A stretch of DNA of 64,000 bases from Venatoribacter cucullus (GTDB taxonomy: Bacteria; Pseudomonadota; Gammaproteobacteria; Pseudomonadales; Oceanobacteraceae). Positions within the stretch are counted from its first letter, which is position 1. Each line of letters starts with the position of its first letter. The stretch covers positions 1,860,001 to 1,924,000 of the forward strand of contig NZ_CP046056.1 of NCBI RefSeq assembly GCF_016132445.1, in the 5' to 3' direction. Positions 12,293 to 54,033 of the stretch are shown piece after piece. A model generated the notes under the pieces. The model saw only the letters and a program-made list of their open reading frames with translations. It was not told the DNA's origin and did not search any database. The position numbers and the translations under genes were made by a program.

Positions 12293-13510
12293 TCAGAAAT
12301 CCCCGGCGGCCATACTGATGGCCTGATCAATCAATTCACCTGCAGCATTCAGACGCATAACGCCGGCCTCACCCACCAGTACGAAGTTGCCATCAGAGGC
12401 TTCGGCAACGGCAGCGTAGGCTTTACGGCCTTCGATAATAAGCGCCCGGGGCTGTTGCATCTGGGCGTCAAACATCACCACTGAACCGGCGTTACCCACC
12501 AGCAGAGTGCGGCGGCTGCTGATGGCGCCGGACAGCAGGGTTTGTTCACTGCCGGTGTTCATTTCCATCCAGCTGATGCCACCATCGGTAGAACGGAATA
12601 CGTGACCACGCAGACCAAACAACAGCTGCTGATCACGGTCAGCGACCAGACCGAACAATGAACCATCGTAAGGGGAATCCAGCACCGCCCAGCTTTCGCC
12701 CAGGTCCTCGGAGCGCATAATCAGGCCCATTTCACCAACGATCATCAGTGAGCGGCCACCCACGGAGGTAATAGCATTCAGGTGCAGACGATCGGGGTTG
12801 GGTAAACGGGACGAAGCATCTACCCAGTTTTCACCGCCATCACGGGTTTCAAACAGCATGCCGTAAGCACCAACGGCAAAACCGCGGCGGGCATCGTAGA
12901 ACCACACATCCAGAAACGGCTTGGTGGAACCACTGTTCATATCGTAACTGGCATCGCTGACCGCGAATTCGGCGTTTTCGAGTGCCGCAGTGGCTTCTTC
13001 AACGGCTACGTCATCACCACGGGCTTCAGCATCGGCCAGTGCCTGTTCGGCGGCCTGCTGCATTTTTTCTGCAGCCGCCACAATAGCCTTATTGGCAATG
13101 AAACCATCAAACTGCTTGGTCCAGCTCTGACCACCATCATCGGTACGCAGAATGACGCCATCATGGCCGGCGGCCCAGCCGATCTGACCGGAAGGGAAAT
13201 GCAAAGACGTCAGGGTTACCGATACCGGCACCCGGGCTTGTTTCCAGGTGTGACCATCGTCATCCGACAGCACAATATGGCCGTGCGAACCAGCGGCAAT
13301 CAGACGGCGATCGGCCCGTACCACATCCAGCATCAGCGTCTGATGGGCACGCTGGGTTTCAAAAGCCGGGGTATTCAGGGGGTCCTGCCAGTTGGCCTGG
13401 GCGGAGGTGGACAGCGCCAGTAAGGCAAACAGTCCGCCAATTCGGGTAAAGCCTGCAGTCGCCAGCCGCTTACAGGCACAGGCGAGAGACTGAACCAAAT
13501 CAGAAAACAT
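12293..13510 (-). CDS. YCF48-like beta-propeller protein, exported
   Basis: The protein begins with a signal peptide (hydrophobic GGLFALLALSTSAQA, predicted cut before NWQDP) followed by repeated Asp-box type motifs of the form (S/T)xDxGxxW: DDDGHTW, DDGGQSW, RDGGENW, EDLGESW and TDGGISW. These mark a BNR/YCF48-type beta-propeller located in the periplasm or envelope. An Ala/Glu-rich helical insert (about 145-180) interrupts the propeller. I chose the ATG at 13510 because GGAG lies six bases upstream and it gives a compact signal peptide; an in-frame ATG at 13570 would add 20 residues. It is a likely partner of the RND exporter immediately downstream. Confidence 0.8.
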   Translation of the reverse strand: MFSDLVQSLACACKRLATAGFTRIGGLFALLALSTSAQANWQDPLNTPAFETQRAHQTLMLDVVRADRRLIAAGSHGHIVLSDDDGHTWKQARVPVSVTLTSLHFPSGQIGWAAGHDGVILRTDDGGQSWTKQFDGFIANKAIVAAAEKMQQAAEQALADAEARGDDVAVEEATAALENAEFAVSDASYDMNSGSTKPFLDVWFYDARRGFAVGAYGMLFETRDGGENWVDASSRLPNPDRLHLNAITSVGGRSLMIVGEMGLIMRSEDLGESWAVLDSPYDGSLFGLVADRDQQLLFGLRGHVFRSTDGGISWMEMNTGSEQTLLSGAISSRRTLLVGNAGSVVMFDAQMQQPRALIIEGRKAYAAVAEASDGNFVLVGEAGVMRLNAAGELIDQAISMAAGDF

Positions 13511-13645
13511 ATTGAGCTCCGTTGTTATAGTAATTGCGGAAGCGGGCAGTCTAGCCGAGCGGTTAACCATTGACTAACGTCCTATTGTTACGATGTGTAA
13601 TAGAGATTAGCACAGCCGGGCTGCTGTCTGCTGCGTGGCAGCCCA

Positions 13646-31702: not shown

Positions 31703-32002
31703 ACAGCAGCGACCGATAACGCCAACCTTGTCACAAAACGATCATCTATGCCCCGGTTGCGCCATGTCCGGGGTGGTGGCGGGCGAAGATTGAGACTTTT
31801 GTCATATCAAAACCTTTCACATTTGCATACAGTGGCCCGTCGCGTCGCGTCATAAAGTAGCGTTTTACTGCTACTTCCGGTAACACCCTGGGCTTTGTCT
31901 GGCCCAGACGGTCGCCGGAACGCCCGTTCTGTATACGCACGACAGCCATGGCACAGGCTTTGCTGTCGATTAAGGTTAACCTCATCTGCGACCGTACCGC
32001 CT
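31703..32002. other. 300-bp intergenic region before the third AraC gene
   Basis: I see no gene, RNA or clear terminator here. The region carries several short inverted repeats, such as CCCCGG / CCGGGG around 31751-31770 and AGTAG / CTACT near 31857-31875, and probably contains the promoter of the AraC gene at 32003. Confidence 0.3.
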
Positions 32003-33052
32003 ATGAACATGGAACAAAGTTACGTCTCTGCTGCCCTGGTCCGTCCTCTTGTGGATGCTGCCGGCCCGACTTTCTTTGATCAGCTGCCTGCTGATGAATC
32101 CGGCCATATCCAGCGGATTCTCAAGCAGCTGCGCGATCCTGATACCCGCCTGAATACCGACGATGCCGATGAGCTGATCAGCCTGCTGATTAACCGCACC
32201 GGCAACGAAGCCCTGTGTGTTCAGGCCGCGCACAAATTCAATGTGCACAGCAGCTGCCAGTTACAGCACCTGTTTTTGTGCTGTAACACATTGCGCGAAG
32301 CGCTGTATTACCTGGAAAAATTCTCCACGCTGCTCAGTGATGAGCTGGAAATTCAGGTTACCCGCACCCGCGATAACATCATCAAAGTGAAATTGCCGGT
32401 GGCCGATAACTTTATTCTGGCCGCCCAGCGTCACCGCACTGAAATGGCGATCAGCACCCTGCTGAACTGGCTGCGCCAGCTCTGTGGTGCCGAGCTGCAA
32501 ATCAGCAATATCAGTGTACCGTTCCCGGCCACTCAGTACGCCCCGCAATACAGCCAGCAATGGCGCAGCGAGATTGAATTCAACGCCGGTGAGTGTGCCA
32601 TTCAGTTTCACAGCAAATGGCTGGATGAAGGGCTGCACAACACCAATCCGCATATTCTGAATATGATGAAGCGCGAGGTGGAAGAACAGTACCGCAAGCT
32701 GGCGCGTTCCGGCGCCTTGTCAGAACGCATCCGCAAAGCCTTTACGCAGAATAAAATCCGCCTCAATGCCAACCAGCAGGAAGTGGCCGATTACTTTCAC
32801 ATCAGCGCCCGCACCCTGAACCGGCACCTGCACCGCGAAGATACGTCGCTGAAGCAGATTGTCACCAGCGTGCGTCTGGAAACCACTCGTCACCTGCTGA
32901 CCAGCACCGATGACAGTATTGAGCAAATCGCGCTCACCGTCGGCTTATCCGGCCGCCGCACGCTGGACCGGATTTTTATCAAAGAAATGAATATGAGCCC
33001 GGCACAATACCGCCAGCATCAGCGTCAGGAAGCACTGGTCGTTAACGGCTGA
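32003..33052 (+). CDS. AraC-family transcriptional regulator
   Basis: The 349-residue protein has an N-terminal sensing domain of the arabinose_bd type and a C-terminal AraC domain with VADYFHISARTLNRHL as the first recognition unit and IEQIALTVGLSGRRTLDRIF as the second. I chose the ATG at 32003 (MNMEQSYVS); the longer frame from 31895 reads through non-conserved basic sequence. The ribosome site is weak, so a start six bases later is possible. Its last 28 bases overlap the end of the converging hydrolase gene. The target is unknown. Confidence 0.8.
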   Translation: MNMEQSYVSAALVRPLVDAAGPTFFDQLPADESGHIQRILKQLRDPDTRLNTDDADELISLLINRTGNEALCVQAAHKFNVHSSCQLQHLFLCCNTLREALYYLEKFSTLLSDELEIQVTRTRDNIIKVKLPVADNFILAAQRHRTEMAISTLLNWLRQLCGAELQISNISVPFPATQYAPQYSQQWRSEIEFNAGECAIQFHSKWLDEGLHNTNPHILNMMKREVEEQYRKLARSGALSERIRKAFTQNKIRLNANQQEVADYFHISARTLNRHLHREDTSLKQIVTSVRLETTRHLLTSTDDSIEQIALTVGLSGRRTLDRIFIKEMNMSPAQYRQHQRQEALVVNG

Positions 33053-40608: not shown

Positions 40609-40641
40609 ATAATCTGAAACACCCCCCTACCAACGCCTTGT

Positions 40642-40655
40642 TAGACCATGGTCGC
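40642..40655 (+). promoter_or_regulatory. Candidate CrbR operator, distal site
   Basis: TAGACCATGGTCGC matches the acs-upstream site TAGACCATTGTCTA at 11 of 14 positions. It lies 164 bp before the DUF4212 start. It is the weakest of the three sites because the second half-site is degenerate. Confidence 0.4.
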
Positions 40656-40738
40656 GGCTGTTTTCAAGCATTGAAAAATTACCCAACCTATTGTTTTTAA
40701 ACAAAAAAACAACCAAAAAAACCCCTTAACCCCACGGT

Positions 40739-40752
40739 AAGACCAATGTCTA
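40739..40752 (+). promoter_or_regulatory. Candidate CrbR operator, promoter-proximal site
   Basis: AAGACCAATGTCTA matches the acs-upstream site at 12 of 14 positions and keeps the spaced half-sites AGAC-N4-GTCT. It lies 67 bp before the DUF4212 start. Possible -10 hexamers follow at 40771 (CATACT) and 40779 (TAGGTT), and no good -35 box is present, as expected for an activator-dependent promoter. Confidence 0.5.
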
Positions 40753-40818
40753 GCTGTCGTGCCTTAACAACATACTGCTAGGTTGAAACGGCATTCAAAT
40801 AATAAATCCGGAGGGGTT

Positions 40819-41079
40819 ATGGATACTGATAAAAACAACGCAGCCGCATATTGGAAGGCCAATGTCCGTCTGATTCTTGGCAGCCTGTTTGTGTGGGCGC
40901 TGGTGTCATACGGTTTTGCCATCATTCTGCGTCCGATGTTAGCGGGCATTAATGTTGGCGGAGCAGACCTTGGGTTCTGGTTTGCTCAGCAAGGTGCAAT
41001 CATCACCTTTATCGCAATCATTTTTCACTACGCGTGGCGAATGAACAAACTCGATAAAGAATTCGGCGTCGAGGAGTGA
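40819..41079 (+). CDS. DUF4212 small subunit of a sodium:solute symporter
   Basis: The 86-residue protein has two membrane helices (about 17-37 and 50-72) and the DUF4212 pattern (AYWKANVRLILGSLFVWALVSYG in parts, then GFWFAQQGAI). It regularly precedes and works with VC_2705-type symporters. I start at 40819 because GGAGGGG lies just upstream; the longer frame from 40783 has no ribosome site. The symporter gene begins 4 bp after its stop, so they form an operon. Confidence 0.92.
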   Translation: MDTDKNNAAAYWKANVRLILGSLFVWALVSYGFAIILRPMLAGINVGGADLGFWFAQQGAIITFIAIIFHYAWRMNKLDKEFGVEE

Positions 41080-41083
41080 GAAT

Positions 41084-42850
41084 ATGAGTCAATTTGCGAT
41101 TAACCTGCTGTTTGTTGGCGCATCCTTTGTACTGTACTTCGGTATCGCCATCTGGGCCCGCGCCGGGTCTACCAAAGAATATTATGTCGCGGGTGGTGGC
41201 GTACACCCGGTTGCCAACGGTATGGCAACTGCCGCTGACTGGATGTCAGCTGCATCGTTTATCTCCATGGCCGGTCTGCTGTCGGTAGGTTACGTTAACT
41301 CGTCCTTCCTGATGGGCTGGACCGGTGGTTACGTGCTGCTGGCCATGCTGCTGGCTCCGTACCTGCGTAAGTTCGGTAAGTTCACCGTGCCCGACTTTAT
41401 CGGTGACCGTTTCTACAGCCGCGGTGCGCGCCTGGTCGCCGTAATCTGTCTGATCGTGGCGTCTGTTACCTACGTAATCGGTCAGATGACCGGTGCCGGT
41501 GTAGCCTTCTCCCGCTTCCTGGAAGTAAGCAGCACCGCCGGTATCTGGATTGCCGCCGGTGTGGTACTGGTTTACGCCGTACTGGGTGGTATGAAAGGTA
41601 TTACCTACACCCAGGTGGCTCAGTACGTGGTACTGATCATTGCTTACACCATTCCTGCCGTGTTCATCTCTCTGCAGTTAACCGGTAACGCCATTCCGTC
41701 ACTGGGTATGTTCGGTACTCACACCGAGTCTGGTCTGCCGCTGCTGGAAAAACTGAACCAGGTGGTTAATGACCTGGGCTTCCAGGACTACACCGCTGAC
41801 GTCGACAACAAACTGAACATGCTGTTGTTCACCCTGTCGCTGATGATCGGTACCGCTGGTCTGCCGCACGTAATCATCCGTTTCTTCACCGTACCGAAAG
41901 TAGCCGACGCCCGTTGGTCTGCTGGCTGGGCACTGGTGTTCATTGCCATGCTGTACCTGACTGCTCCGGCCGTAGGTTCCATGGCTCGTCTGAACCTGAT
42001 GAACACCGTGTATCCGGAAGGCACCAGTGCTCCGGCGCTGGAATACGCTGAACGTCCTGAGTGGATCAAGACCTGGGAAGAAACTGGTCTGGTGAAATTT
42101 GAAGACAAAAACAGCGATGGCCGTATCCAGGTGTACAACGACAAAAACGCTAACTTTGCCGACACCGCTGCCGAGCGTGGTTGGAACGGTAACGAGCTGA
42201 CCGTTAACAACGACATCATGGTACTGGCTAACCCGGAAATTGCCGGTCTGCCGGGCTGGGTAATCGGTCTGATTGCTGCCGGTGGTATTGCGGCTGCACT
42301 GTCTACCGCTGCCGGTCTGCTGCTCGCCATTTCCTCTGCGGTATCCCACGACCTGATCAAGAATATGATCAAGCCGGATATCAGTGAGAAAGGTGAACTG
42401 ATGGCTGCCCGTATCTCCATGACCGTTGCCATTCTGCTGGCCACCTGGCTGGGTCTGAACCCACCCGGTTTCGCCGCACAAACGGTAGCTCTGGCGTTCG
42501 GTATTGCCGCAGCGTCGATCTTCCCGGCACTGATGATGGGTATCTTCTCCAAGCGGGTGAACAACCGTGGCGCGGTTGCCGGTATGCTGGCAGGTCTGCT
42601 GAGCACACTGGTGTATATCTTCACCTTCCTGGGTTGGTTCTTCATTCCGGGTACCAACACCCTGGCCAACACTCCGGATAATTGGCTGCTGGGTATCTCC
42701 CCGCTGTCGTTCGGTGCGGTGGGTGCGATGATCAACTTTGCTGTGGCTTATGTGGTGTCGTTCGCCACCGAAGAACCGCCGCAGGAAATTCAGGATCTGG
42801 TAGAAAGCGTACGTACTCCAAAAGGTGCTGGCGCTGCTGTTGATCACTGA
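41084..42850 (+). CDS. Sodium:solute symporter, VC_2705/ActP-like
   Basis: The 588-residue protein has about 13 membrane helices and the SSS-family pattern, with FITMAGLLSVGY-like and GLPHVIIRFFTVPK segments. An acidic insert of about 95 residues near the middle (about 320-385, EDKNSDGRIQVYND) sits in a loop and looks like a calcium-binding or other regulatory loop. This subfamily is annotated for acetate or short organic acid uptake. The candidate operators upstream and the nearby acs and CrbS/CrbR genes support acetate. ATG is preceded by GAGGAG within the DUF4212 end. Confidence 0.9.
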   Translation: MSQFAINLLFVGASFVLYFGIAIWARAGSTKEYYVAGGGVHPVANGMATAADWMSAASFISMAGLLSVGYVNSSFLMGWTGGYVLLAMLLAPYLRKFGKFTVPDFIGDRFYSRGARLVAVICLIVASVTYVIGQMTGAGVAFSRFLEVSSTAGIWIAAGVVLVYAVLGGMKGITYTQVAQYVVLIIAYTIPAVFISLQLTGNAIPSLGMFGTHTESGLPLLEKLNQVVNDLGFQDYTADVDNKLNMLLFTLSLMIGTAGLPHVIIRFFTVPKVADARWSAGWALVFIAMLYLTAPAVGSMARLNLMNTVYPEGTSAPALEYAERPEWIKTWEETGLVKFEDKNSDGRIQVYNDKNANFADTAAERGWNGNELTVNNDIMVLANPEIAGLPGWVIGLIAAGGIAAALSTAAGLLLAISSAVSHDLIKNMIKPDISEKGELMAARISMTVAILLATWLGLNPPGFAAQTVALAFGIAAASIFPALMMGIFSKRVNNRGAVAGMLAGLLSTLVYIFTFLGWFFIPGTNTLANTPDNWLLGISPLSFGAVGAMINFAVAYVVSFATEEPPQEIQDLVESVRTPKGAGAAVDH

Positions 42851-42862
42851 TCATAATAAAAA

Positions 42863-42896
42863 CCTGAGGCGGCACCGCCGGCCTCAGGGCTTTTTT
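42863..42896 (+). terminator. Intrinsic terminator of the symporter operon
   Basis: CCTGAGGC and GCCTCAGG pair (with an inner GGC / GCC) and are followed by six T, 12 bp after the stop codon. Confidence 0.92.
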
Positions 42897-42898
42897 AA

Positions 42899-42925
42899 AC
42901 GGGCCTTTTACAGGCCCGTTTTTAT
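42899..42925 (+). terminator. Second hairpin with T tract, before the next gene
   Basis: ACGGGCC and GGCCCGT pair around a 6-7 base loop and are followed by TTTT. It lies 2 bases after the first terminator and 19 bases before the next ATG. It may be a back-up terminator. Confidence 0.8.
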
Positions 42926-42943
42926 TCAGGAAATATAATAATT

Positions 42944-43456
42944 ATGTTGTGGACCATTATTGCTGTTGCAGTGTCAGGCCTGGGGGCTGCGGGTATCGCA
43001 CTGCTGTTACGGAAACTCAGTGGCAACCGTTTGCCGAAATGGCTTATTCCGGTATTTGCCGGAGCCGGTATGCTGGCCTATCAGATCAGCTGGGAATACA
43101 GCTGGTTCGAGCATCAGTCAGCCCGTCAGCCGGAAGGTGCGTTGGTGGTGGCAACCGAACAGAACCCGGAAATCTGGCGTCCCTGGACATTCCATATTCC
43201 CATGACCAACGCCTACACCGTACTGGATACCAACCGTATCGATAAGCGGGTAGCCGGTAACGATACCGTCGCCAGCTTTATTCTGTACCGCTTTGAAAAA
43301 CAACACGTAGACCGCGTAGTGCCGCAGGCTTATCTGCTTAATTGCACCACCGCCGAACTGGTGCCATTAAAAAGCCCCAGCGAACCGGATGCACAGAAAA
43401 TCAAACGCCTGTCGCAAGACGACAAACTGTACAGCGCGGTATGTGGTAAACAATAA
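42944..43456 (+). CDS. Anchored periplasmic protein of unknown function
   Basis: The 170-residue protein has two hydrophobic helices (about 2-22 and 35-55) and a soluble C-terminal part. The sequence WEYSWFEHQSARQPEGALVVA and FHIPMTNAYTV are its most distinctive stretches. AGGAAAT precedes the ATG. Two strong hairpins with T tracts lie between it and the symporter, so it probably has its own promoter or depends on read-through. I recognise no family; homologues of unknown function are common beside VC_2705-type symporters, but I cannot verify this here. Confidence 0.7.
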   Translation: MLWTIIAVAVSGLGAAGIALLLRKLSGNRLPKWLIPVFAGAGMLAYQISWEYSWFEHQSARQPEGALVVATEQNPEIWRPWTFHIPMTNAYTVLDTNRIDKRVAGNDTVASFILYRFEKQHVDRVVPQAYLLNCTTAELVPLKSPSEPDAQKIKRLSQDDKLYSAVCGKQ

Positions 43457-43485
43457 AACGGGGGGTTGTATTTCTGCGCTGAGCT

Positions 43486-44097
43486 TCAGCGCTTGAAATG
43501 CACCAGTTTGATGTACATTAATGCCGTTGAAATAACATCACCCATGGCGGTGTGACGCTCAATCACCGGCACTTTTAAGTCTTCCGCAATATCCTCAAAT
43601 TTAAGCCCCACCGGCATCTGCGGATGCACCCGGCGCTTGCGCAAAGTGTACAGATCGGCCACATCAATAAAACGGTTGGGTAGCTCAAAGTTATACAGCT
43701 GGCGGATATAACGGTTAAGAATGGCGCGGTCGTAATCAATGTAATAACCGACAATGGGCCGGTTACCGACAAAATCCAACAGGTTCTCAATGGCTTCTGA
43801 CACCGCCACACCTTTATGCCGGTCTTCACGGCGCAGATAATGCACCCGCACCGCATCCGGGTCGGTAATGGCGTTGGAGTTCACCACCAGATCCAGAGCC
43901 TGCGATAAGCGGATTTCCCCGCCTTTTACGCACACGGCAGCAATGCTCAGCAACTCGCCTTTCTTTTTATCAAAAATACTGGTTTCACAATCCAGCACCA
44001 CCACTTCATCGCCTTTATAAGGCTCAGCCAGATGCTGCCAGCGGCCTTTCGGCAGCTGATAACCAGGAATAAGCTGGCGCAACCAGAACGGCATCAT
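43486..44097 (-). CDS. DEDD-family 3'-5' exonuclease (DnaQ-like)
   Basis: The 203-residue protein has the first exonuclease motif VLDCETS with Asp36 and Glu38, a central segment VGYYIDYDRAILNRY (motif II, Asp in YIDYD) and a late HTAMGDVISTA (motif III). This is the catalytic set of DnaQ-like nucleases. It is short and lacks a polymerase-binding tail, so a role in RNA or DNA trimming outside the replicase is more likely than proofreading. Its start overlaps the DUF294 gene stop (ATGA). This exonuclease-DUF294 pair is typically next to CrbS-like kinases. Confidence 0.85.
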   Translation of the reverse strand: MMPFWLRQLIPGYQLPKGRWQHLAEPYKGDEVVVLDCETSIFDKKKGELLSIAAVCVKGGEIRLSQALDLVVNSNAITDPDAVRVHYLRREDRHKGVAVSEAIENLLDFVGNRPIVGYYIDYDRAILNRYIRQLYNFELPNRFIDVADLYTLRKRRVHPQMPVGLKFEDIAEDLKVPVIERHTAMGDVISTALMYIKLVHFKR

Positions 44098-45902
44098 CCG
44101 AAGCTCTCCAGATGATAATGATTAATTAATAACTGCTTGAACTTCTTCACCCGGTGCAGCGCATGGCGCAACAGACTGCGGTCAACACTGCGCATGGCTG
44201 ATAAGCTCAGCTGCTGACTGAGGCCCGGATTATCCACCCCGCTTTCCAGTTGCTGGCGCAGACGGATACGCAAAAAGAACAGCAACGCATCTTTTAAACC
44301 CTGCACCACTTCCGGGGCCAGTACCTGTAATTCCTGTAAGCGGTCCAGCCTTACCAGGGTGTTGGTGTCACTGACGCCAAATTCAAAGGACAGCGCCCGC
44401 ACCCCATGCACCAGCGGAAAAATACCGCCTTTTTTAATATCAATATGGCCATGGTCTTCGCGGATATTACCGAGGAAATTCAGCGGCGTTTCAAACTTCA
44501 GTGCCGGGCGGGCAAACCAGGCCGACGCCACACTGGAGCGCAACTCCGGCTTCTGCCAGCTGCGTTTTACCTGCCGGAATAATTCCATATCCCCGCAAAT
44601 GGCTTCGCCATCCATAAAAATAGCCATATTCATCATGGCTTCCGGGCTGGCGGAATTCAGCCAGCGGCCCACTTTGCCCTGCCAGCCGTCCACGGTATTA
44701 ATCCAGCTGTCGTTAATAAACATCACCCCACCCGGGCACGGCGGATAGCCGAAATCCAGCAAGGCCTGATGAAAACTCTGCAACAACGGCAACACGGCTT
44801 CGCGGTCGTGCTCGTTTTTCAGAATAATGGCGTTGTCCTGGTCGGTTTTCAGAATCTGCTCGCCGCGCCCTTCACTGCCCAGCACCAGAATGCACACACT
44901 CTGCTGCAGACGCTTGGGGAAAATCAGCTCAAAAGCCCGCTGCATCAGACGCCGGTTAAGCGTGGTAATTAACTCCATAATGGCGACAATTTTCACACCC
45001 TGCTGATTCAGGCTGTCGATCAATACTTCCAGGCGTTTGGCGGCGATGACCAGCTCTTTCAGGGTTTTCGACTGCTCAATCCGCATGGCAATAACATGAG
45101 AGTGGGTTGAAAACACACTCAGCATATCCATTAATTCCAGCATGCCGACAATATCGCCATCGCGGGTAACCACCACCCGCTCAATATGATGCTGGGTCAT
45201 TTTCAGCAACGCATTAAACAGGAAGTCGCCGTATTTCACTTCAATCAGATTAAACTGAGCAATGTCCGCCACTTTGGTTTGCTTGGTTTTATCCCCCAGC
45301 AACGTAGCCCGCAGCAGATCGGTGCCGGTAACAATGCCGATTTCTTTGGCTGTGCGCACCAGCACCGCATCGTATTTCTGCTCTTCCATAATGGCCGCCA
45401 CGCGGCTGAGGCTGGTCTGGCCGGTAACGTACACCGGCGGGCGGATGCTTTCTTCATCAATGCGGGACAGAATAAATTCTGACACCCCGGCCCCGCTGTC
45501 ACGCTGCTCAACCAGATTCTGCCGGGTTCCTAAATCCGTTTTAAAATAAACCGAGAAATCTTTGGATTTATCCAGCAGGTGAATGAAGTTTTTGGTTTTC
45601 AGTAAATAGCACAGCGTTTCTTCCGTGGCCGTGTACTTATGCTTGCAGCCGGATTCCAGAATGGCACGCACATCAAAAATATCTTCATTGCCGTAACGCG
45701 CATACAGCTTATTGCCGCTCTGATCCGTTTCCGAAACCACCCCTTTATACACAATAAACAAACCGGGTGAGGCATCCCCTTCGTTCAGAATAACGCTGCC
45801 GGCCGGATAAAAAACCAGATCCAGATGCCCGGTAAGCCACTGCAACTGTTCCGGCTCCAGAAAGCTGAACGGTGGCTGATTAAGATTGATCTGAATGGTC
45901 AT
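44094..45902 (-). CDS. cNMP-binding, CBS and DUF294 nucleotidyltransferase-like protein
   Basis: The 602-residue protein has an N-terminal cyclic-nucleotide-binding fold (about 15-130), two CBS domains (about 155-275, with IGIVTGTDLL and DIVGMLELMDML), then a DUF294 nucleotidyltransferase domain (VLGSEGRGEQILKTDQDNAI, the GSxxR and DxD-like residues) and a DUF294 C-terminal helical part. It may sense nucleotides and modify a partner, as in PII-uridylyltransferase-like enzymes. I start at 45902 because AGGA lies upstream and the cNMP domain follows at the usual distance; an in-frame extension to 46082 runs across a terminator and is unlikely to be used. Confidence 0.85.
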   Translation of the reverse strand: MTIQINLNQPPFSFLEPEQLQWLTGHLDLVFYPAGSVILNEGDASPGLFIVYKGVVSETDQSGNKLYARYGNEDIFDVRAILESGCKHKYTATEETLCYLLKTKNFIHLLDKSKDFSVYFKTDLGTRQNLVEQRDSGAGVSEFILSRIDEESIRPPVYVTGQTSLSRVAAIMEEQKYDAVLVRTAKEIGIVTGTDLLRATLLGDKTKQTKVADIAQFNLIEVKYGDFLFNALLKMTQHHIERVVVTRDGDIVGMLELMDMLSVFSTHSHVIAMRIEQSKTLKELVIAAKRLEVLIDSLNQQGVKIVAIMELITTLNRRLMQRAFELIFPKRLQQSVCILVLGSEGRGEQILKTDQDNAIILKNEHDREAVLPLLQSFHQALLDFGYPPCPGGVMFINDSWINTVDGWQGKVGRWLNSASPEAMMNMAIFMDGEAICGDMELFRQVKRSWQKPELRSSVASAWFARPALKFETPLNFLGNIREDHGHIDIKKGGIFPLVHGVRALSFEFGVSDTNTLVRLDRLQELQVLAPEVVQGLKDALLFFLRIRLRQQLESGVDNPGLSQQLSLSAMRSVDRSLLRHALHRVKKFKQLLINHYHLESFG

Positions 45903-45958
45903 CGAAGCATCCTGTGGCAGATTCCGTCTGCAATAAGCATAGAGGTAAAACGCAGAGA

Positions 45959-45987
45959 TAAAAAAGGCACCGTCAAACGACGGTGCC
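45959..45987 (-). terminator. Intrinsic terminator in the leader of the DUF294 gene
   Basis: On the minus strand GGCACCGTC and GACGGTGCC pair around GTTT and are followed by six T. It lies 57 bases before the DUF294 start codon. No gene ends here on this strand, so it is an attenuator or the end of a small RNA that begins downstream of the TAGAAT near 46104-46109. Confidence 0.8.
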
Positions 45988-46228
45988 AAGGGGAGCCCCA
46001 GCTCAGAGGCAAGGATCGCACTGCCGCCAGACAGCCACAGTGCAGATTCAGAAAACGATAACTCTCCGACATAGACAGCCATGCACTACAGAGTAATGGC
46101 GCTATTCTAATGGCGGAAGCGCGCCGGCTCAGCCCGACCATAGTAGCAGGCTGAACAGGACGGCCTGTGCCGGCCGCACGGGCGTGATAAACTGCCCCGC
46201 AAACGATAAAAAGACTTCAAGGACTCCT

Positions 46229-49200
46229 ATGATCCCGGTATGGCAGCTGGTTTCGATTTCCGTTCTGTACATTGCAACCCTGTTCTGGATTGCCTGGTAC
46301 GGCGACCGCCGCGCCCAGCAAGGCAAACCCATTCATAACAGCGGCACCGTCTACAGCCTGTCGCTGGCGGTGTACTGCACCTCCTGGACCTTCTATGGCG
46401 CCGTTGGTCAGGCCGCGACCAGTGGCTGGATGTTCCTGAGTATTTATGTCGGCCCGATTCTGTTTCTGCTGCTGTTCTGGCGCATGCTCAGCAAAATTAT
46501 CCGCATCGCCAAAGAAAAACGTCTGACCTCCATCGCCGACTTTATCGGCACCCGTTATGGCCGCGACCACACATTGGCCATTCTTATTACCATTGTGGCG
46601 CTGCTGGGGGTTATTCCCTATGTGGCGCTGCAGTTAAAAGCCATTGCCACCACCTTTGAGCTGGCGACCCAGCCGCTGGGCGTCAGCGTGGCCGGCAGCC
46701 TGCCCTTCTGGGAAGACACGGCCTTTCATATCAGCTGGGCCATGGCCCTGTTTGTGATTATTTTCGGTACCCGCGATATCGACGCCAGCGAGCAGCACCC
46801 GGGGATGATTCTGGCGGTGGCCTTTGAATCCATCGTAAAGCTGGCCGCCATTCTGATTGTCGGCTTCTGGGTGGTAACCACCCTGTACGACACCCCGCTG
46901 GGATTTCTGACCTTATCGGCCAGCGTTATTCCCGACCACCCGATCTTTAACAGCAATATTATTTCGGTAGCCTTTTTGCTGCAGAGCCTGCTGGCCGGCT
47001 TCGCCATTCTGTGTCTGCCACGCCAGTTTCAGGTCGCGGTTATTGAAAACGAATCGCCCCGCCATGTGCACACCGCGCGCTGGTTATTCCCGCTCTATTT
47101 GTTGCTGATGGTCGCCTTTGTGGTGCCCATCGCCCTGACCGGCCAGATGTTTATGCACGACCTGGGCTTTACCCCGGATACCTACGTTATCAGCCTGCCG
47201 GTCGCGCTGGGCCAGAAATTAATGGCCATTATCGGTTTTATCGGCGGTGGCAGCGCCGCCACCGGCATGATTATTGTGGCCACCATTGCCATCAGCACCA
47301 TGGTGTCGAACGAGCTGGTGCTGCCGGTATTTTTCCGCAACTCCAGCCACAATGGTGAGCCGCAGCAATCGTCCAACATCCGCACGCTGGTGCTGACGGT
47401 ACGCCGGCTGGTCATCGTTATGGTCATGCTGTTGTCGTACGGCTTTTACCGCTGGGTCGGCGAGTTTGAATCCCTGGCCGCCATCGGCCTGTTGTCCTTT
47501 GCGGCCGTGGCGCAGTTTGCCCCGGCCTTAATCGGTGGCCTGCTGTGGCAGGGAGCCAACCGTCAGGGCGCCATTGCCGGCGTGCTGGGCGGCACCTTTG
47601 TGTGGTTCTTTACCCTGTTGTGGCCGGTGATCATGCAGGAACTGACCGCCACCGGCATTACCCCCGACAAATTCTTCGGCATGGAGCTGGACCGCTTCAG
47701 CTTCGGCGTGATCCTCAGCCTGTGGGTGAATATTTCGCTGTTTGTATTCTTCTCGGTGGTCACCAACGCCTCGGTGCGGGAACGCATGCTGGCCAGCGAT
47801 TTCACCAGCACCAAAGCCCTGCAACCGGCCAATAAACTGTCGCCCGGTTTAAGCTGCAAAGTCGACGACGTGCGCGTGGTACTGGAACGTATTCTGGGCT
47901 ACAAAAAAACCGAAGCATTTTTTGCTGAATACCAGTCCCACCACGGCATCCAGTACGACCATGCGCCGGCCTCGGCCGAATTACTGCGCGATACCGAAAA
48001 ACTGCTGGCCTCGGTGGTGGGTTCGTCGTCGGCACGGGTCATTTTTTCCACCCTGCTCGGTGGTGAACAGATTCAGATCCGCGACCTCGCCTTCCTCGCC
48101 AGTGAAGCCAGCCAGGCCTTTGCCATGAGCCGCGAACAACTGCAGGCAGCGCTGGAAAACCTGCAGCAGGGTGTGAGCGTGGTTGACCGCAATCTCAACC
48201 TGGTGGCCTGGAACAGCCGTTATCTGGAAATATTCAATTATCCGCCGGGGCTGATTCAGGTGGGCAAACCCATTGCCGAAATCATTGCCTTTAACGCTGG
48301 CCGTGGCTTCTGCGGCAGCGGCACCATCGAACAACAGGTAGCGCGGCGGATGAATTTTCTGCGCGCCGGCTCGTCGCATAACTTTGAACGCCAGTTGCCC
48401 AATGGCGTGGTCATTCTGATGCAAGGTCACCCGATGCCGGATGGTGGTTTCGTAACCAGTTTTACCGACATCACCATTCACCGCAAAGCCGAACAGGCGC
48501 TGAAAGAAGCCAATATCAGCCTGGAACAACGGGTGGAAGAAAGCAGCGAAGAACTGGCCGACCTGACCGCCCAGCTGATTGAAGCCAACACCAGCAAAAC
48601 CCGCTTCCTGGCCGCCGCCGGCCACGACCTGATGCAACCACTGAACGCCGCCAAGCTGTTTGCCTCAACCCTGGCCCAGCACAACCTCAGCGACGATCAG
48701 CGGCATTTATTAAACCACCTGGAAGGCTCGCTGCAGTCGGCCGAAGACGTGCTGTCGGTACTGGTGGAAATATCCAAACTGGATGCCGGTGCCATTGAGC
48801 CGGTGGTACGACCGGTACAGCTGAATACCGTGCTGAAACCACTGCGTGATGAATTTACCGCGCTGGCGGCCGAAAAAGGCCTGCGCCTGCGTTTCCACAG
48901 CGGCGACCACTGGGTACTCAGCGACCCGCACTGGCTGCGGCGCATTATTCAGAACCTGGTTTCCAACGCCGTGCGCTACACCAACAAAGGCGGCGTATTA
49001 CTGGGTTGCCGCAAACGCGGCCAGGAACTGGTGATTGAAGTGTGGGACAGCGGCCCCGGCATTCCGAAATCCAAACTGGGAGAAATTTTCCGCGAATTCA
49101 AACGCCTGCACACCAGCAAAGACAGCAAAGGGCTGGGGCTGGGGCTGGCCATTGTCGACCGCATGGCCAAACGCATGGGCCACCGCATTGAAGTGGATTC

Positions 49201-49663
49201 CTGGGTGGATTACGGCAGCCGCTTCCGCCTGATAGTGCCCATTACCGAAGCGGCACTGGTAAAACAGGACAACCGCGACCAGCAGGCACGGGTATCCGGC
49301 AGCTTTGAAGGCATGAAAACCTTTGTTATCGACAATGACCCGGAAGTGCTGGCCGGCATGAACGCCCTACTGAACAGCTGGCAATGCGAGGTATACAGCT
49401 GCAGCGATATGGAAGACGCCTTAAAAGTACCCTTTACGCCACAGATTATGCTGTCGGACTACCAGCTGGATAACGACGAAACCGGTCTGGAAGTAATGAA
49501 AGCCCTGCGGCAGAAATTCGGTGACGAACTTCCCGGGGTACTGATCACCGCCGACCCACGCCCGGCGGTAGAAGAAGAAGCCCGCGAACTGGGCTTCTAT
49601 TTCCTGCGCAAACCCCTGCGGCCAGCGGCGTTACGGGCGTTACTGCGGAGGATGATTCGGTAG
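46229..49663 (+). CDS. crbS: Hybrid sensor kinase fused to sodium:solute symporter domain (CrbS-like)
   Basis: The 1144-residue protein has 13 membrane helices of the SSS family (residues about 1-540), a PAS-like domain (about 640-770), a histidine kinase core with phospho-acceptor His799 in AAGHDLMQPLN, an ATPase domain with DSGPGIPKSKLGEIF, and a C-terminal receiver with Asp1077. This is the CbrA/CrbS/MxtR architecture. CrbS senses acetate-related signals and drives CrbR to turn on acs. The assignment as CrbS rests on the adjacent LuxR regulator and acs. I use the ATG at 46229 with AAGGA upstream; an ATG at 46184 has no ribosome site. Confidence 0.88.
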   Translation: MIPVWQLVSISVLYIATLFWIAWYGDRRAQQGKPIHNSGTVYSLSLAVYCTSWTFYGAVGQAATSGWMFLSIYVGPILFLLLFWRMLSKIIRIAKEKRLTSIADFIGTRYGRDHTLAILITIVALLGVIPYVALQLKAIATTFELATQPLGVSVAGSLPFWEDTAFHISWAMALFVIIFGTRDIDASEQHPGMILAVAFESIVKLAAILIVGFWVVTTLYDTPLGFLTLSASVIPDHPIFNSNIISVAFLLQSLLAGFAILCLPRQFQVAVIENESPRHVHTARWLFPLYLLLMVAFVVPIALTGQMFMHDLGFTPDTYVISLPVALGQKLMAIIGFIGGGSAATGMIIVATIAISTMVSNELVLPVFFRNSSHNGEPQQSSNIRTLVLTVRRLVIVMVMLLSYGFYRWVGEFESLAAIGLLSFAAVAQFAPALIGGLLWQGANRQGAIAGVLGGTFVWFFTLLWPVIMQELTATGITPDKFFGMELDRFSFGVILSLWVNISLFVFFSVVTNASVRERMLASDFTSTKALQPANKLSPGLSCKVDDVRVVLERILGYKKTEAFFAEYQSHHGIQYDHAPASAELLRDTEKLLASVVGSSSARVIFSTLLGGEQIQIRDLAFLASEASQAFAMSREQLQAALENLQQGVSVVDRNLNLVAWNSRYLEIFNYPPGLIQVGKPIAEIIAFNAGRGFCGSGTIEQQVARRMNFLRAGSSHNFERQLPNGVVILMQGHPMPDGGFVTSFTDITIHRKAEQALKEANISLEQRVEESSEELADLTAQLIEANTSKTRFLAAAGHDLMQPLNAAKLFASTLAQHNLSDDQRHLLNHLEGSLQSAEDVLSVLVEISKLDAGAIEPVVRPVQLNTVLKPLRDEFTALAAEKGLRLRFHSGDHWVLSDPHWLRRIIQNLVSNAVRYTNKGGVLLGCRKRGQELVIEVWDSGPGIPKSKLGEIFREFKRLHTSKDSKGLGLGLAIVDRMAKRMGHRIEVDSWVDYGSRFRLIVPITEAALVKQDNRDQQARVSGSFEGMKTFVIDNDPEVLAGMNALLNSWQCEVYSCSDMEDALKVPFTPQIMLSDYQLDNDETGLEVMKALRQKFGDELPGVLITADPRPAVEEEARELGFYFLRKPLRPAALRALLRRMIR

Positions 49664-49724
49664 AAGCTGTGGGGTTGAGGGTTAATCGTTCAGGGTTCTG
49701 CGTGCCCGGTAGTTAAGCCAGCGC

Positions 49725-49759
49725 ACGCCCAACGCTTAACGCCGAACGCCGAACGCCCA
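49725..49759. repeat. Five tandem heptamers between converging crbS and crbR
   Basis: The units ACGCCCA, ACGCTTA, ACGCCGA, ACGCCGA and ACGCCCA follow one another without gap, and the next two bases continue AC. The fixed part is ACGC--A. They end 3 bases before the crbR stop codon (49763), within a 99-bp gap. Confidence 0.85.
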
Positions 49760-49762
49760 ACA

Positions 49763-50440
49763 TCACTCCATCTGCCCCGCCATAGTGGTATCCGGCTTTT
49801 CAAAATCCAGACTTTGCACAGCAATAACCGCCTGGGTGCGGGTACGCACGCCCAGCTTGCGGAAAATCGCGGTAACGTGGGCTTTAATGGTGGCTTCGCT
49901 GACGTCCAGATCGTAGGCGATCTGTTTGTTCAGCATACCTTCCGACATCATGCTTAATACACGGAACTGCTGCGGCGTAAGGCTGGCCAGACGGTTGGCC
50001 AGATCCAGCGCATTCTGGTCTGGGTGATGCTGATGGCGGCGCGCCGCTTCCGGCAGATAAATATCACCTTCCAGCACCCGGCCAATGGCGCTGGCAATAT
50101 CATCCAGCGAGGCCGACTTGGGAATATAACCCGAAGCTTCATGGTCAATGGCCTGACACATAATGGCCGGGTCTTCACAGGCCGACACCACCATCACCGG
50201 AATTTCCGGGTAGTGCGAACGCAAAAACACCAGCCCGGAATAGCCATGCGCACCCGGCATCTGTAAATCCAGCAGAATAAGGTCGGCATCTTTGTGCTGT
50301 TCCACCACCTGCTGCAGTTCCGGCAAAGACTCTGCCTGGGCAATGGTCACATCCGGCACCAGCTGCTTTACCGCCTGCTGCATGGCTGTGCGGAACAGCG
50401 GATGGTCATCAGCGATAATAATTTTCTGTGCGAGCTGCAT
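49763..50440 (-). CDS. crbR: LuxR-type response regulator (CrbR-like)
   Basis: The 225-residue regulator has a receiver domain with Asp11/Asp12 in IIADDHPLF and the phospho-acceptor Asp58 in LILLDLQMPG. The C-terminal LuxR helix-turn-helix contains LTPQQFRVLSMMSEGMLNK and VSEATIKAHVTAIFRKLGV. I start at 50440 because AGGGA lies five bases upstream of that ATG; 50452 and 50467 are alternatives. It converges on crbS and lies beside acs, which matches CrbR/ErdR. It would activate acs and the symporter operon. Confidence 0.88.
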   Translation of the reverse strand: MQLAQKIIIADDHPLFRTAMQQAVKQLVPDVTIAQAESLPELQQVVEQHKDADLILLDLQMPGAHGYSGLVFLRSHYPEIPVMVVSACEDPAIMCQAIDHEASGYIPKSASLDDIASAIGRVLEGDIYLPEAARRHQHHPDQNALDLANRLASLTPQQFRVLSMMSEGMLNKQIAYDLDVSEATIKAHVTAIFRKLGVRTRTQAVIAVQSLDFEKPDTTMAGQME

Positions 50441-50531
50441 AGATTCCCTCATATCTGAGCCGGTCATATTCAGCCGGCAGCGGTTATTTTTTTATTGTGC
50501 ACCCATGATGCTAGCAGGGGTTCAGAAAAGC

Positions 50532-50567
50532 AAAAAACTGCCCAGGGAGATTATCCCGGGGCAGTTT
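50532..50567 (-). terminator. Intrinsic terminator of acs
   Basis: On the minus strand AAACTGCCC pairs with GGGCAGTTT around a 15-base loop with its own inner CGGGA / TCCC-like pairing, and is followed by TTTT. It lies 17 bp past the acs stop. Confidence 0.85.
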
Positions 50568-50583
50568 CCTTACACGCCGACCC

Positions 50584-52536
50584 TCACTTACGGTTCAGAC
50601 GCTGATCCACCAGGGTTTCCACCACCGACGGATCGGCCAGAGTAGAAATATCACCCAGAGCATCGTGCTCGTTGGCGGCAATTTTACGCAGAATACGGCG
50701 CATAATCTTACCCGAGCGGGTTTTTGGCAGCCCGGAAGTGATCTGAATCAAATCCGGTGTCGCAATCGGGCCAATCTCAGCACGTACCCAGTTACGCAGC
50801 TCTTTCACCAGTTCTTCACTGGCCTGTTCGCCGCTGTTCAGAGTGACGTATACATAGATACCCTGACCTTTAATATCGTGCGGATAACCCACCACCGCAG
50901 CCTCGGCCACTTTCGGGTGCGATACCAGCGCGCTTTCTACTTCAGCGGTACCCATACGGTGGCCGGATACGTTAATAACGTCGTCCACACGGCCGGTAAT
51001 CCAGTAGTAACCGTCTTCATCACGACGGGCACCATCACCGGTGAAATACATACCGCGGAAGGTGGAGAAATAAGTCTGCACATACCGCTCATGGTCACCG
51101 TACACGGTACGGGCCTGGCCCGGCCAGCTGTCGACAATCACCAGGTTACCTTCGGTTGCACCTTCCAGGATCATGCCAGTGTTGTCCACCAGCGCCGGCT
51201 GCACACCAAAGAACGGACGGGTAGCCGAACCGGGTTTGGTATCGGTTGCACCCGGCAGCGGGGTAATCATGATGCCGCCGGTTTCAGTCTGCCACCAGGT
51301 ATCCACAATCGGGCAGCGCTCTTCACCGATAACACGGTAATACCATTCCCAGGCTTCCGGGTTAATCGGCTCGCCCACAGAACCCAGCAGACGCAGGGAT
51401 TCACGATGGGTATTTTCCACCGCCCGTGAACCTTCAGCCATCAGCGAGCGGATAGCGGTCGGCGCGGTGTACAGAATGTTCACCTGGTGCTTATCCACGA
51501 TTTGCGAGAAACGGTTGATATCCGGATAGTTCGGTACGCCTTCGCACATCAGGGTAATGGCACCGTTCAGCAGCGGTCCGTACAGAATATAGGTGTGGCC
51601 GGTAATCCAGCCCACGTCGGCGGTACACCAGTACACATCGCCTTCGTGGTAATCAAAAATGTACTGATGGGTAATAGAGGCATACACCAGATAACCACCA
51701 GTGGTATGCACCACGCCTTTCGGCTTACCAGTTGAACCGGAGGTGTACAGGATAAACAGCGGGTCTTCGGCGTTCATTTCTTCCGCCGGGCAATGCGGAG
51801 AAGCCACTTTAACCAGGTCGTGGTACCACACATCACGGGCCGCGTGCCAGGCCACGTTACCGCCGGTACGCTTCACCACAATCACTTTTTCCAGTGAACG
51901 GATGGCCGGGTTGGTTAACGCTTCATCGACGTTGGCTTTCAGCGCCACGTTCTTACCACCGCGCACACCTTCGTCGGCGGTGATTACAATTTTGGCATTA
52001 CTGTCTTCAATACGGCCGGCCAGTGCATCCGGCGAGAAACCACCAAACACCACGGAATGCACTGCACCAATACGGGTACAGGCCAGCATCGCCACGGCGG
52101 CTTCCGGGATCATCGGCATGTAAATACACACCACATCACCCTTGCGCACGCCCTGGCCACGCAGCGCGTTGGCAAAACGGGATACTTCTTCGTGCAGCTC
52201 GCGGTAGGTAATATGACGGTCTTCAGACGGGTCATCGCCTTCCCAGATAATAGCCGTCTGGTCACCGCGGGTTTCCAGGTGACGATCCAGACAGTTCACA
52301 GAAGTATTCAGCGTGCCGTCTTCAAACCACTTGATATCCACATTGTGGTCATCGAATGAAACGTTGCGCACACGGGTAAAAGGCTTCATCCAGTCGATAC
52401 GCTGCATGGCCTGCTCGCGCCAGAACCCTTCCGGGTTAATGATGGACTGCTGATACATCTGCAGATACTTTTCGTTATTGATCCAGGCGGAATCCGAAAA
52501 TTCCTGCTTTACCGGATACAATTTCTGGTCGCTCAT
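50584..52536 (-). CDS. acs: Acetyl-CoA synthetase
   Basis: Acs activates acetate with ATP and CoA to acetyl-CoA in the cytoplasm. The 650-residue protein has the AMP-forming signature [15 protein letters not shown] and the C-terminal acetylated lysine motif [17 protein letters not shown]-like [10 protein letters not shown] is also present. I start at 52536 because AGGAG lies upstream and the family begins there; the longer frame to 52638 would lie in the promoter. The gene has its own candidate operator 122 bp upstream and probably supplies the acetyl-CoA for growth on acetate. Confidence 0.96.
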
Positions 52537-52905
52537 AGCGTTCTCCTGCGAGTTATTATCATTGTTGGCTCGGCGCGGTGTCCGCACAGTAACTGACGTA
52601 ACCAATGCGCTTAATGCCTTTGCATTCATAGTGGTCATTGGCTGCCAAATGCTGAATTAGACAATGGTCTATCCACAATCCGGGCTGATTATGTCTTTTT
52701 TTTCAGCAGTGAGACGCCCAAACCCCATTCTGCCAAGCCGTGCGCCGGTTTCGTCCTTTATTACCGCATCCATGCCGGCCAATGCCCCCGACCAAAGCCG
52801 TACAAACACCGTACCGCGGTGGCACCTGCTACTTATGGCTAATTTCTCACCAATTCAGAACTGCACCATAGTGGTTCGGCACAACGACAATAACAGGAGA
52901 GTAAC
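52537..52905. other. 369-bp divergent promoter region between acs and the porin
   Basis: No gene is present. It holds the candidate CrbR operator (52658-52671), a possible acs -10 box TATGAA read on the minus strand (52625-52630), an eight-T run at 52692-52699, and the porin ribosome site AGGAG near 52896-52900. I saw no convincing sigma-54 or sigma-70 box for the porin. Confidence 0.4.
52658..52671 (-). promoter_or_regulatory. Candidate CrbR operator upstream of acs
   Basis: Read in the direction of acs this is TAGACCATTGTCTA, an imperfect palindrome with half-sites TAGAC and GTCTA around four bases. It is centred about 46 bases upstream of the start implied by the TATGAA -10 box, a usual place for an activator. 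Two similar sites lie upstream of the DUF4212/symporter operon. Confidence 0.55.
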
Positions 52906-54033
52906 ATGCGCAAGACTTCCGCGATTCTGCTGGCCGCTGCCCTGCCAATGGCTGTGCAGGCTGCTAATACCGAATTCACCTATGGTGGTTTTATTAAGTT
53001 CGACGCTATGTACAGCCAGTATTCAGATGGTGCTGCTACCAATGCCGGCGCACTTGAAGTTGGACGTGATTTTTATGTCCCGGCTGCTATCCCCACTGCT
53101 GGCGATAGTACAAGCAGTACTGATTTCACTGCCCGTTCTTCCCGTTTTAACTTTAAAACCGTAACCACGCTGGATAACGGTGAAAAGGTTACCGGCTTTG
53201 TTGAGCTGGATTTCCTGACCACCACTGAAGGGGATGAACGAGCCTCTAACTCATTTGCACCGCGTCTGCGTCATGCTTACTTCAGCTACAACAATGTACT
53301 GGTAGGTCAGACCTGGACTACCTTTATGAACGTTGGCGCCCTGCCGGAAATGGTCGACTTCTTCGGTGTTTCTGAAGGTACCGTATTTGGTCGTCAGTCC
53401 CAGATTCGCTACACCATGGGTAATCTGCAATTAGCCTTGGAAAACCCGGAAAGCACTATTGGTGGTGCTCGTGGTGGTGATGAAGTCGATCAATCCAAAA
53501 TGCCCGACCTGATTGCCCGCTACAACATTGCAGCCGGAGACCACTCTTTCAGTGTTGCCGGTATTGTTCGCCAGCTTTCAGATGACGATGGTGCTGGTAA
53601 CGATGACAGCGCAATGGGATACGGCGTAAACGTTGCAGGCGTTGTAAAACTGGGTGCTGATGACCTGAAATTCAGCGTTACTCACGGCCAGGTAGCCCGC
53701 TATGTAGGCTTGGGCGCAACAGCCGCCGACGCTGTGATAGTTGGAGCTGATATTGAGCCAACTGACGTAACAGCGGCATTTGTTGCCTACCGTCATTTCT
53801 GGAACCCGAAACTGCGCAGCACCGTTGCTTACTCAATGCTGGATGCTGATTATGAAGGAGCAGGTGCAGCGGCTTTGATTGAAAAATCCCAGAGCGCTCG
53901 TATTAACCTGATGTACTCACCGGTTAAAGAAGTGACTTACGGTGTGGAATACAGTAATTCTAAGATTGAGAAAGATGACAACACTGACGGCACCATGGAC
54001 CGTCTGCAGTTCACTGCCAAATACAGCTTCTGA
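52906..54033 (+). CDS. DcaP-like outer-membrane porin
   Basis: The 375-residue protein has a signal peptide cut after QAA and a beta-barrel body that ends in the aromatic residue Phe (FTAKYSF). The region with DFTARSSRFNF, GFVELDF and GQTWTTF is typical of the DcaP trimeric porins. These take up dicarboxylates or other organic acids. Its codon use is less GC-rich at the third position than its neighbours. AGGAG lies seven bases upstream of the ATG. It is divergent from acs, which suggests joint use in acetate or short-acid metabolism. Confidence 0.82.
   Translation: MRKTSAILLAAALPMAVQAANTEFTYGGFIKFDAMYSQYSDGAATNAGALEVGRDFYVPAAIPTAGDSTSSTDFTARSSRFNFKTVTTLDNGEKVTGFVELDFLTTTEGDERASNSFAPRLRHAYFSYNNVLVGQTWTTFMNVGALPEMVDFFGVSEGTVFGRQSQIRYTMGNLQLALENPESTIGGARGGDEVDQSKMPDLIARYNIAAGDHSFSVAGIVRQLSDDDGAGNDDSAMGYGVNVAGVVKLGADDLKFSVTHGQVARYVGLGATAADAVIVGADIEPTDVTAAFVAYRHFWNPKLRSTVAYSMLDADYEGAGAAALIEKSQSARINLMYSPVKEVTYGVEYSNSKIEKDDNTDGTMDRLQFTAKYSF

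Follow-up and report, generated by a model that had tools for sequence, protein, structure and literature searches.

The acs-symporter locus and its inverted repeats

The window analysed here, a stretch of 64,000 nucleotides from Venatoribacter cucullus (contig NZ_CP046056.1, positions 1,860,001 to 1,924,000 of the forward strand), carries a gene for acetate--CoA ligase (acs), a two-gene operon for a sodium/solute symporter and its small DUF4212 partner and, between these, putative genes for the sensor kinase CrbS and the response regulator CrbR (also called ErdR). Imperfect inverted repeats upstream of acs and of the symporter operon are considered here as candidate operators of CrbR, of the type described as the ACTU motif in Pseudomonas fluorescens. 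The genes and sites are:

40640-40656, minus strand: distal ACTU-like candidate site before the symporter operon, CGCGACCATGGTCTAAC, enclosing the repeat 40642-40655
40738-40754, plus strand: proximal ACTU-like candidate site before the symporter operon, TAAGACCAATGTCTAGC, enclosing the repeat 40739-40752
40819-41079, plus strand: DUF4212 small subunit of a sodium/substrate symporter, 86 residues (PF13937, TIGR03647)
41084-42850, plus strand: VC_2705-family sodium/solute symporter, 588 residues (TIGR03648, 829.8 bits, cut-off 320.75)
46229-49663, plus strand: crbS, SLC5-like/PAS/HisKA/HATPase/REC hybrid sensor kinase (alternative start 46184)
49763-50467, minus strand: crbR/erdR, response regulator with REC and LuxR-type helix-turn-helix domains (PF00072, 76.0 bits; PF00196, 67.0 bits)
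50584-52536, minus strand: acs, acetate--CoA ligase (TIGR02188, 1041.8 bits, cut-off 724.95)
52656-52672, minus strand: ACTU-like (CrbR) candidate site before acs, ATAGACCATTGTCTAAT, enclosing the repeat 52658-52671

All three repeats have exactly the positions given in the initial annotation. The acs repeat reads TAGACAATGGTCTA on the plus strand and TAGACCATTGTCTA toward acs, with 6 of 7 base pairs symmetric, and its TAGACCATTGTCTAA is kept in the same-family relative G219. The proximal symporter repeat is AAGACCAATGTCTA (4 of 7 pairs symmetric) and the distal one TAGACCATGGTCGC (5 of 7). The common core AGACCA-NN-GTC noted earlier is correct, and the statement that the promoters lack a good -35 box holds at the sites. 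The distal and proximal symporter sites are 97 base pairs (bp) apart. Two sites also precede the symporter in G219, about 102 bp apart, and 4 of the 22 promoters that have a proximal site, counting the one in the window, show a spacing of 97-104 bp. Similar two-site spacings, of 102-104 bp, were seen in G219, G218 and Pseudomonas guineae. Downstream of the ACTU-like site, the acs leader (52584-52555, minus strand) contains a weak sigma-70-like match (9/12).

Family assignments of the surrounding genes bear out the earlier placement of crbS and crbR between both targets; crbR adjoins acs, and an exonuclease gene is also among the genes of the locus. Among 70 NCBIfam families, the best match of CrbR is NF041830 (ErdR) with 268.2 bits, and this best match together with the gene neighbourhood suggests that CrbR is an ortholog of the published regulator. 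Profile searches detected PAS, HisKA, HATPase_c and a C-terminal REC domain in CrbS, while its N-terminal 557 residues gave no family match in Pfam or NCBIfam, and no model of the STAC domain came up in these searches. An AlphaFold2 model of this N-terminal part, built from 12 sequences and with a predicted local distance difference test (pLDDT) score of 78.7, matched the SLC5 transporters NIS, SMCT1 and SGLT2 (best Foldseek E 1.3e-8, template modelling scores 0.64/0.70), so that CrbS is predicted to carry an SLC5-type membrane domain. The symporter (41084-42850) has 81-84% identity with homologues from Halomonas, from Vibrio metschnikovii and from further families but only 70% with its homologue in G219, while acs and crbR are 90% and 85% identical to theirs; replacement of the symporter gene through horizontal transfer is possible.

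Correspondence to the published ACTU motif

In passages of Sepulveda and Lupas 2017 (PMC5715377), the ACTU motif is described as an inverted repeat of imperfect symmetry on which activation by CrbR depends in P. fluorescens, a requirement established by mutations. The same passages place the motif at -52 to -36, name acs, actP and the PFLU5625 gene as CrbR targets, and, for 31 gammaproteobacteria, count 91 of the 112 acs, actP, pflu0110 and pflu5625 homologues as having it upstream. For P. putida, a part of PMC8402216 reports binding of ErdR to three of the corresponding promoters, and for P. aeruginosa, passages of PMC9927353 report gel shifts in which phosphorylated ErdR bound to 13 of the 15 ErdR promoters. 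The comparison with published CrbR/ErdR sites that had been proposed for the window gave agreement, as its sites fit ACTU in sequence and in position before the -10 box.

The consensus TAGAC-N4-GTCTA put forward in the initial annotation did not hold up: allowing two mismatches, it was found 7 times in the window against 8.4 expected, and it was rejected as a stand-alone test in the absence of enrichment. With at most one mismatch it occurs at 8 places in the genome, and the acs and proximal symporter sites account for two of these. Since this consensus is not special, palindromy alone proves nothing and an outside yardstick was needed. For this purpose one matrix, here called the published matrix, was built from the four sites of P. 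fluorescens that have experimental support (Table 4 of PMC5715377), and a refined matrix from 14 acs sites of relatives and the four published sites, including the one of the P. fluorescens actP operon; the refined matrix contains no site of the window and none from DUF4212/VC_2705 promoters.

When the published matrix was run over the window (about 128,000 positions), the distal symporter site ranked first, the acs site fourth and a site between crbS and a gene for a CBS-DUF294 protein (see below) fifth. Such scores are expected per 64 kb 1.3 times for the distal site, 5 times each for the acs and CBS sites, 8 times for a site before a dcaP-like porin gene (see below) and 42 times for the proximal symporter site, so that this ranking is not decisive by itself. 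The refined matrix ranked the acs site first, followed by the distal symporter, dcaP and proximal symporter sites. The acs score was never reached in 2 Mb of simulated sequence (first-order Markov background), and the expected numbers per 64 kb were 0.06 for the distal, 0.22 for the dcaP and 0.32 for the proximal site, the CBS site being unremarkable at about 38.

In the genome of 2.83 Mb, the pattern KACYWWNGTCKA, drawn from the published sites and those of the window, has 12 matches. Judged from a listing of open reading frames (ORFs), not from gene calls, 9 of these lie within ORFs of at least 118 residues, and the only 3 outside are the acs site and both symporter sites. The pattern KACYWWNGKCTAA matches at only 3 places in the genome, namely the distal symporter site, the acs site and the dcaP site. 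As both patterns were written after the sites had been seen, these counts gauge rarity and placement and are not an independent prediction.

Of 58 promoters with a site, 30% have a -10-like hexamer exactly 31 bp past the motif centre, whereas the 59 other offsets reach only 0-9% each; many of these promoters come from Halomonas relatives and are not independent, and Halomonas acs promoters contribute strongly to the peak. A peak 31 bp after the centre places the motif centre near -43.5, as in the published arrangement. In the window, the symporter operon has the -10-like TGC-TAGGTT (hexamer 40779-40784, 3/6) at offset 33, dcaP has CATAGT (52867-52872, 4/6) at offset 32, and the CBS gene has TAGAAT (46109-46104, 5/6) at offset 31.

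To relate the motif to the presence of the regulator, an order sample of 55 relatives of the same order was used, 52 of which had a scored acs; 62 of 63 acs copies were scored, one incomplete copy (G226:C268) being left out. With the published matrix at threshold 9, within 350 bp before an acs copy, and with CrbR defined by at least 45% identity, 16 of the 23 genomes that have CrbR showed the motif, as did 3 of the 29 others (Fisher p = 2.3e-5); the corresponding numbers were 15 and 3 at threshold 10, and 12 and 3 at threshold 11. Column-permuted matrices at threshold 9 gave a mean of 2.6 of the 23 genomes and a maximum of 8. All three exceptions, which have the motif and a CrbR below 45%, possess CrbR homologues at 42-44% identity. 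The scan of relatives suggested in the initial annotation thus showed, for the order sample, that the occurrence of the motif before acs follows that of CrbR.

In another set of loci, scored with the published matrix at a threshold of 9, the motif preceded acs in 15 of 38 cases (permuted mean 3.7, maximum 10), the CBS gene in 8 of 14 (permuted mean 1.3, maximum 6) and crbR in 2 of 19 (permuted mean 1.2, maximum 4). The region just upstream of the internal symporter gene serves as a natural negative; it had the motif in 8 of 111 cases (permuted mean 8.5), and that before the exonuclease gene in 0 of 12. Upstream of crbS, 7 of 27 stretches reached the same threshold (permuted mean 1.8, maximum 7), and control of its own sensor gene by CrbR is possible.

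A DcaP-like porin and a CBS-DUF294 protein as further candidate targets

The initial annotation named acs and the symporter operon as targets; its list was incomplete in that dcaP, and possibly the CBS-DUF294 gene, were missing. The features concerned are:

44094-45902, minus strand: cNMP-binding/CBS/DUF294 protein (PF03445, PF10335, PF00571, PF00027); the start at 45902 (MTIQINLNQ) is inferred, and the ORF could begin at 46082
46132-46148, minus strand: candidate ACTU-like site between crbS and the CBS-DUF294 gene, TGCTACTATGGTCGGGC, rank 5 with the published matrix
52827-52843, plus strand: ACTU-like candidate site before dcaP, TGCTACTTATGGCTAAT, rank 3 with the refined matrix, 79 bp before dcaP
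52906-54033, plus strand: dcaP-like outer-membrane porin, 375 residues, divergent from acs (PF19577 DcaP, 76.2 bits, cut-off 27; PDB 6eus, E 4.9e-23)

G219 has a nearly identical dcaP site, TGCGACTTATGGCTAAT, at the same distance to the gene. When the regions between acs and dcaP of the window and of G219 were aligned pairwise, the longest conserved blocks were the acs and dcaP sites, with 15 bp each; the dcaP -10 lies within a block of 10 bp, and a block of 11 bp in the acs leader is also conserved. Of the order sample, 24 relatives have CrbR, and DcaP (E <= 1e-20) was found in 12 of them, against none of the other 31 (p = 6e-6, from a Fisher test with hand-entered counts and CrbR identities). 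In 9 of these 12 relatives a dcaP copy adjoins acs, crbR or the DUF4212-symporter genes.

Eight dcaP neighbour loci were picked by gene position, the sites at five of them having been seen beforehand, and 7 of the 8 had a site scoring at least 10 (permuted mean 0.24; none of 300 permutations reached 7). The locus of G226, first labelled distant, proved to be adjacent on its contig, which gives 8 of 9 dcaP neighbours with a site, G221 being the miss; among distant dcaP paralogues a site was found in 0 of 4. For G234 and G205 the top matches are acs sites that had trained the refined matrix, and their dcaP-facing sites score 16.0 and 12.6, which leaves the count unchanged. The dcaP-facing variant GACTAATGGCTAAT recurs in G234, G205, G213, G233 and G193 and is altered in G226, G219 and the window. 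In many cases acs or crbR is transcribed divergently from dcaP, so that part of these sites may act on the adjacent gene instead. DUF4212 lies behind dcaP on the same strand in G234, G205, G221, G213, G226, G233 and G193, which suggests an operon.

In a class-level sample, drawn without regard to CrbR, a dcaP copy lies no more than about 1.5 kb from an acs-like gene, a symporter gene or a CBS gene in 7 of the 10 relatives with a DcaP match, and outside the order a site was found in only 2 of these 7 dcaP neighbours. A search of the literature on DcaP, porins, CrbR/ErdR, DUF4212 and acetate, mostly screened by title or abstract opening, brought up, among the papers listed, no link between a porin and the CrbR regulator, and none appears in passages of PMC12997753 and PMC5715377; in a part of PMC4364456, CrbR stands for carbenicillin resistance. 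Taken from sequence comparison, dcaP has good support as an added putative CrbR target. We further consider it rather probable that, across many gammaproteobacteria, a DcaP-like porin belongs to the core of the CrbR acetate switch and is regulated together with its other members, in which case CrbR would turn on a whole uptake line of porin, DUF4212/VC_2705 symporter and acetyl-CoA synthetase. If so, the acetate switch would also govern entry through the outer membrane, and acetate or other short carboxylates would become the likely class of substrates for DcaP-like porins near acs.

The CBS-DUF294 protein is likely a relative of the published CrbR target PFLU5625. Before the same gene in G219, CTAGACCAATGTCGTGC was read by eye and lies under the threshold of 8.5. 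With a weak site in the window and membership in a published target family, the CBS-DUF294 gene is possibly a further CrbR target. On the same strand, a strong intrinsic terminator (45987-45966; stem of 9 bp with 7 G-C pairs, T6) lies between the site with its -10 (46148-46104) and the start of the gene at 45902, and a CrbR-driven transcript could therefore end as a leader or small RNA of about 135 nucleotides. An Rfam RNA at this terminator was considered and rejected, as Rfam gave no match, and by eye no such terminator was seen in the G219 upstream region.

The CrbS/CrbR reading and its alternatives

The sites are very probably ACTU-type operators of the CrbS/CrbR acetate switch, as the initial annotation had proposed for a CrbR regulon, and the ACTU match, the association of the acs motif with CrbR and the position of crbS and crbR argue for it. 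As motif and regulon were published in 2017, this would be a new instance of a known regulon and not a new system. Binding by CrbR, its phosphorylation, the direction of regulation and acetate as the signal are carried over from published work on relatives. By that analogy, phosphorylated CrbR would bind the imperfect 14-bp repeat as a LuxR/NarL-type dimer. The repeat would be centred about 31-34 bp upstream of the -10 (at about -43 to -46), and CrbR would substitute for the poor -35 box. CrbR would activate acs, the divergent dcaP, the DUF4212/VC_2705 symporter operon, whose two sites lie about 97 bp from each other, and probably also the CBS-DUF294 gene, and the regulon would join outer-membrane entry, inner-membrane uptake and acetate activation. 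The acetate genes of this genome may thereby be placed under a published regulatory system, with candidate operators supplied.

Among the closest known systems is the CrbS-CrbR (MxtR-ErdR) regulon of P. fluorescens SBW25. According to passages of PMC5715377, it shares the imperfect repeat KAC-N4-GTC, inverted and placed about 31-34 bp before the -10, and its targets likewise comprise acs, a symporter of the acetate type together with its small partner gene, and the signal-transduction protein PFLU5625, which is a CBS protein, judged by its P. putida homologue in a part of PMC8402216. In the window, by comparison, the symporter is of the DUF4212/VC_2705 type with two sites, the crbS, crbR, acs and symporter genes are clustered, and a DcaP-like porin is added. 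In Vibrio vulnificus AcsR/AcsS, the CrbR homologue also binds the acsA upstream region in gel shifts, whereas the array targets listed in the same passages of PMC4409781 include no symporter, and these passages give no operator sequence. EmaSR of Acinetobacter baumannii is a related two-component system with an actP gene nearby, but its EmaR motif is another 15-bp sequence (parts of PMC9603970 and PMC10891947).

Several results weigh against the CrbS/CrbR reading, some of them from the symporter promoters of relatives. Before DUF4212, the published matrix reached 9 in 20 of 110 stretches (permuted mean 9.6, maximum 19), the 110 including the window, one of the 111 loci lacking 150 bases upstream, and one of the 20 matches, L072, being spurious because its contig ends there and the wrong stretch was scored. 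As this is little above chance, members of this symporter family do not carry the motif in general. For the order sample, where the refined matrix was used at a threshold of 9 and 28 of 29 loci were scored (L188 has no DUF4212), the symporter motif was found in 5 of 16 loci with CrbR of at least 45% identity and in 3 of 12 without, which is not significant; permuted matrices gave a mean of 0.8 of the 16 and a maximum of 4. In seven fetched regions longer upstream stretches revealed no new strong site, and those of G202, G145 and the second G218 copy contained none. A motif general to VC_2705 symporters was thus unsupported both in the 110 DUF4212 stretches and at the 45% cut-off. At a CrbR cut-off of 42%, picked after the data had been seen, the numbers become 8 of 19 against 0 of 9 (p = 0.029). 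In the named loci, a site of at least 8 within 600 bp was present in 14 of 17 with CrbR in the locus and in 17 of 62 others (79 of 80 counted, L072 left out; many of the 17 are closely related Halomonadaceae). DUF4212 follows dcaP in some relatives, as noticed after the test, so that a promoter directly before DUF4212 need not exist. For the symporter, the motif is clear here and in a subset of relatives, but not in most genomes with crbS/crbR, which the initial annotation had named as support.

On the same side of the balance, the CrbR of the window scores under the NCBIfam ErdR cut-off (268 against 390), and its proximal symporter site ranks only 29th with the published matrix. The -10 of acs is poor (CACTAT, 3/6, or TATGAA, 4/6, at offset 31 or 34), and the refined matrix gives the CBS site a low score (4.7). 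Among the 16 acs matches in relatives, several deviate from the GTC core, and the kinship of the Halomonas promoters described above limits the -10 peak. At least three further places of TAGAC-N4-GTCTA with one mismatch (L002, L006 and L008) lie apparently between genes or at their edge. Published data also differ in part: a passage of PMC8402216 reports no binding of ErdR at the P. putida acsA-I promoter, and according to passages of PMC9927353 most tested ErdR targets of P. aeruginosa went up in the erdR mutant, PA3235 (the acetate symporter operon) being the exception.

These points bear on three alternatives. It is unlikely that the acs site alone is functional and that the symporter, dcaP and CBS matches arose by chance or are decayed. 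The non-significant association at 45% and the mediocre score of the proximal symporter site with the published matrix would fit this explanation, but the three matches outside ORFs in the whole genome sit at acs and the symporter operon, G219 has its own pair of symporter sites and a conserved dcaP site, and published work counts acs, actP and the PFLU5625 gene among the targets of CrbR. That the sites belong to a different LuxR/NarL-type response regulator encoded here would fit the 15 matches to CrbR found in the genome at E <= 1e-3, CrbR itself included, and the three relatives that keep the motif before acs with a CrbR homologue of only 42-44% identity. This second alternative is quite unlikely, though, because motif and CrbR occur together through the order sample, the motif is the same as the one published as CrbR-dependent, and crbR adjoins acs here. 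That the shared palindrome is a mere coincidence, as the lack of enrichment of TAGAC-N4-GTCTA in the window and its single-mismatch copies at other apparently intergenic places might suggest, is extremely improbable in view of the phylogenetic association at acs, the locked distance to the -10 and the genome-wide placement of KACYWWNGTCKA.

Three other features of the window were observed. An ORF of 170 residues (42944-43456) lies directly 3' of the symporter gene and has no match in Pfam or NCBIfam. The second and third best matches to the published matrix in the window are at 13569-13585 and 31791-31807; the former stands at the start of the minus-strand ORF 12293-13570, and the latter about 90 bp before the plus-strand ORF 31895-33052.

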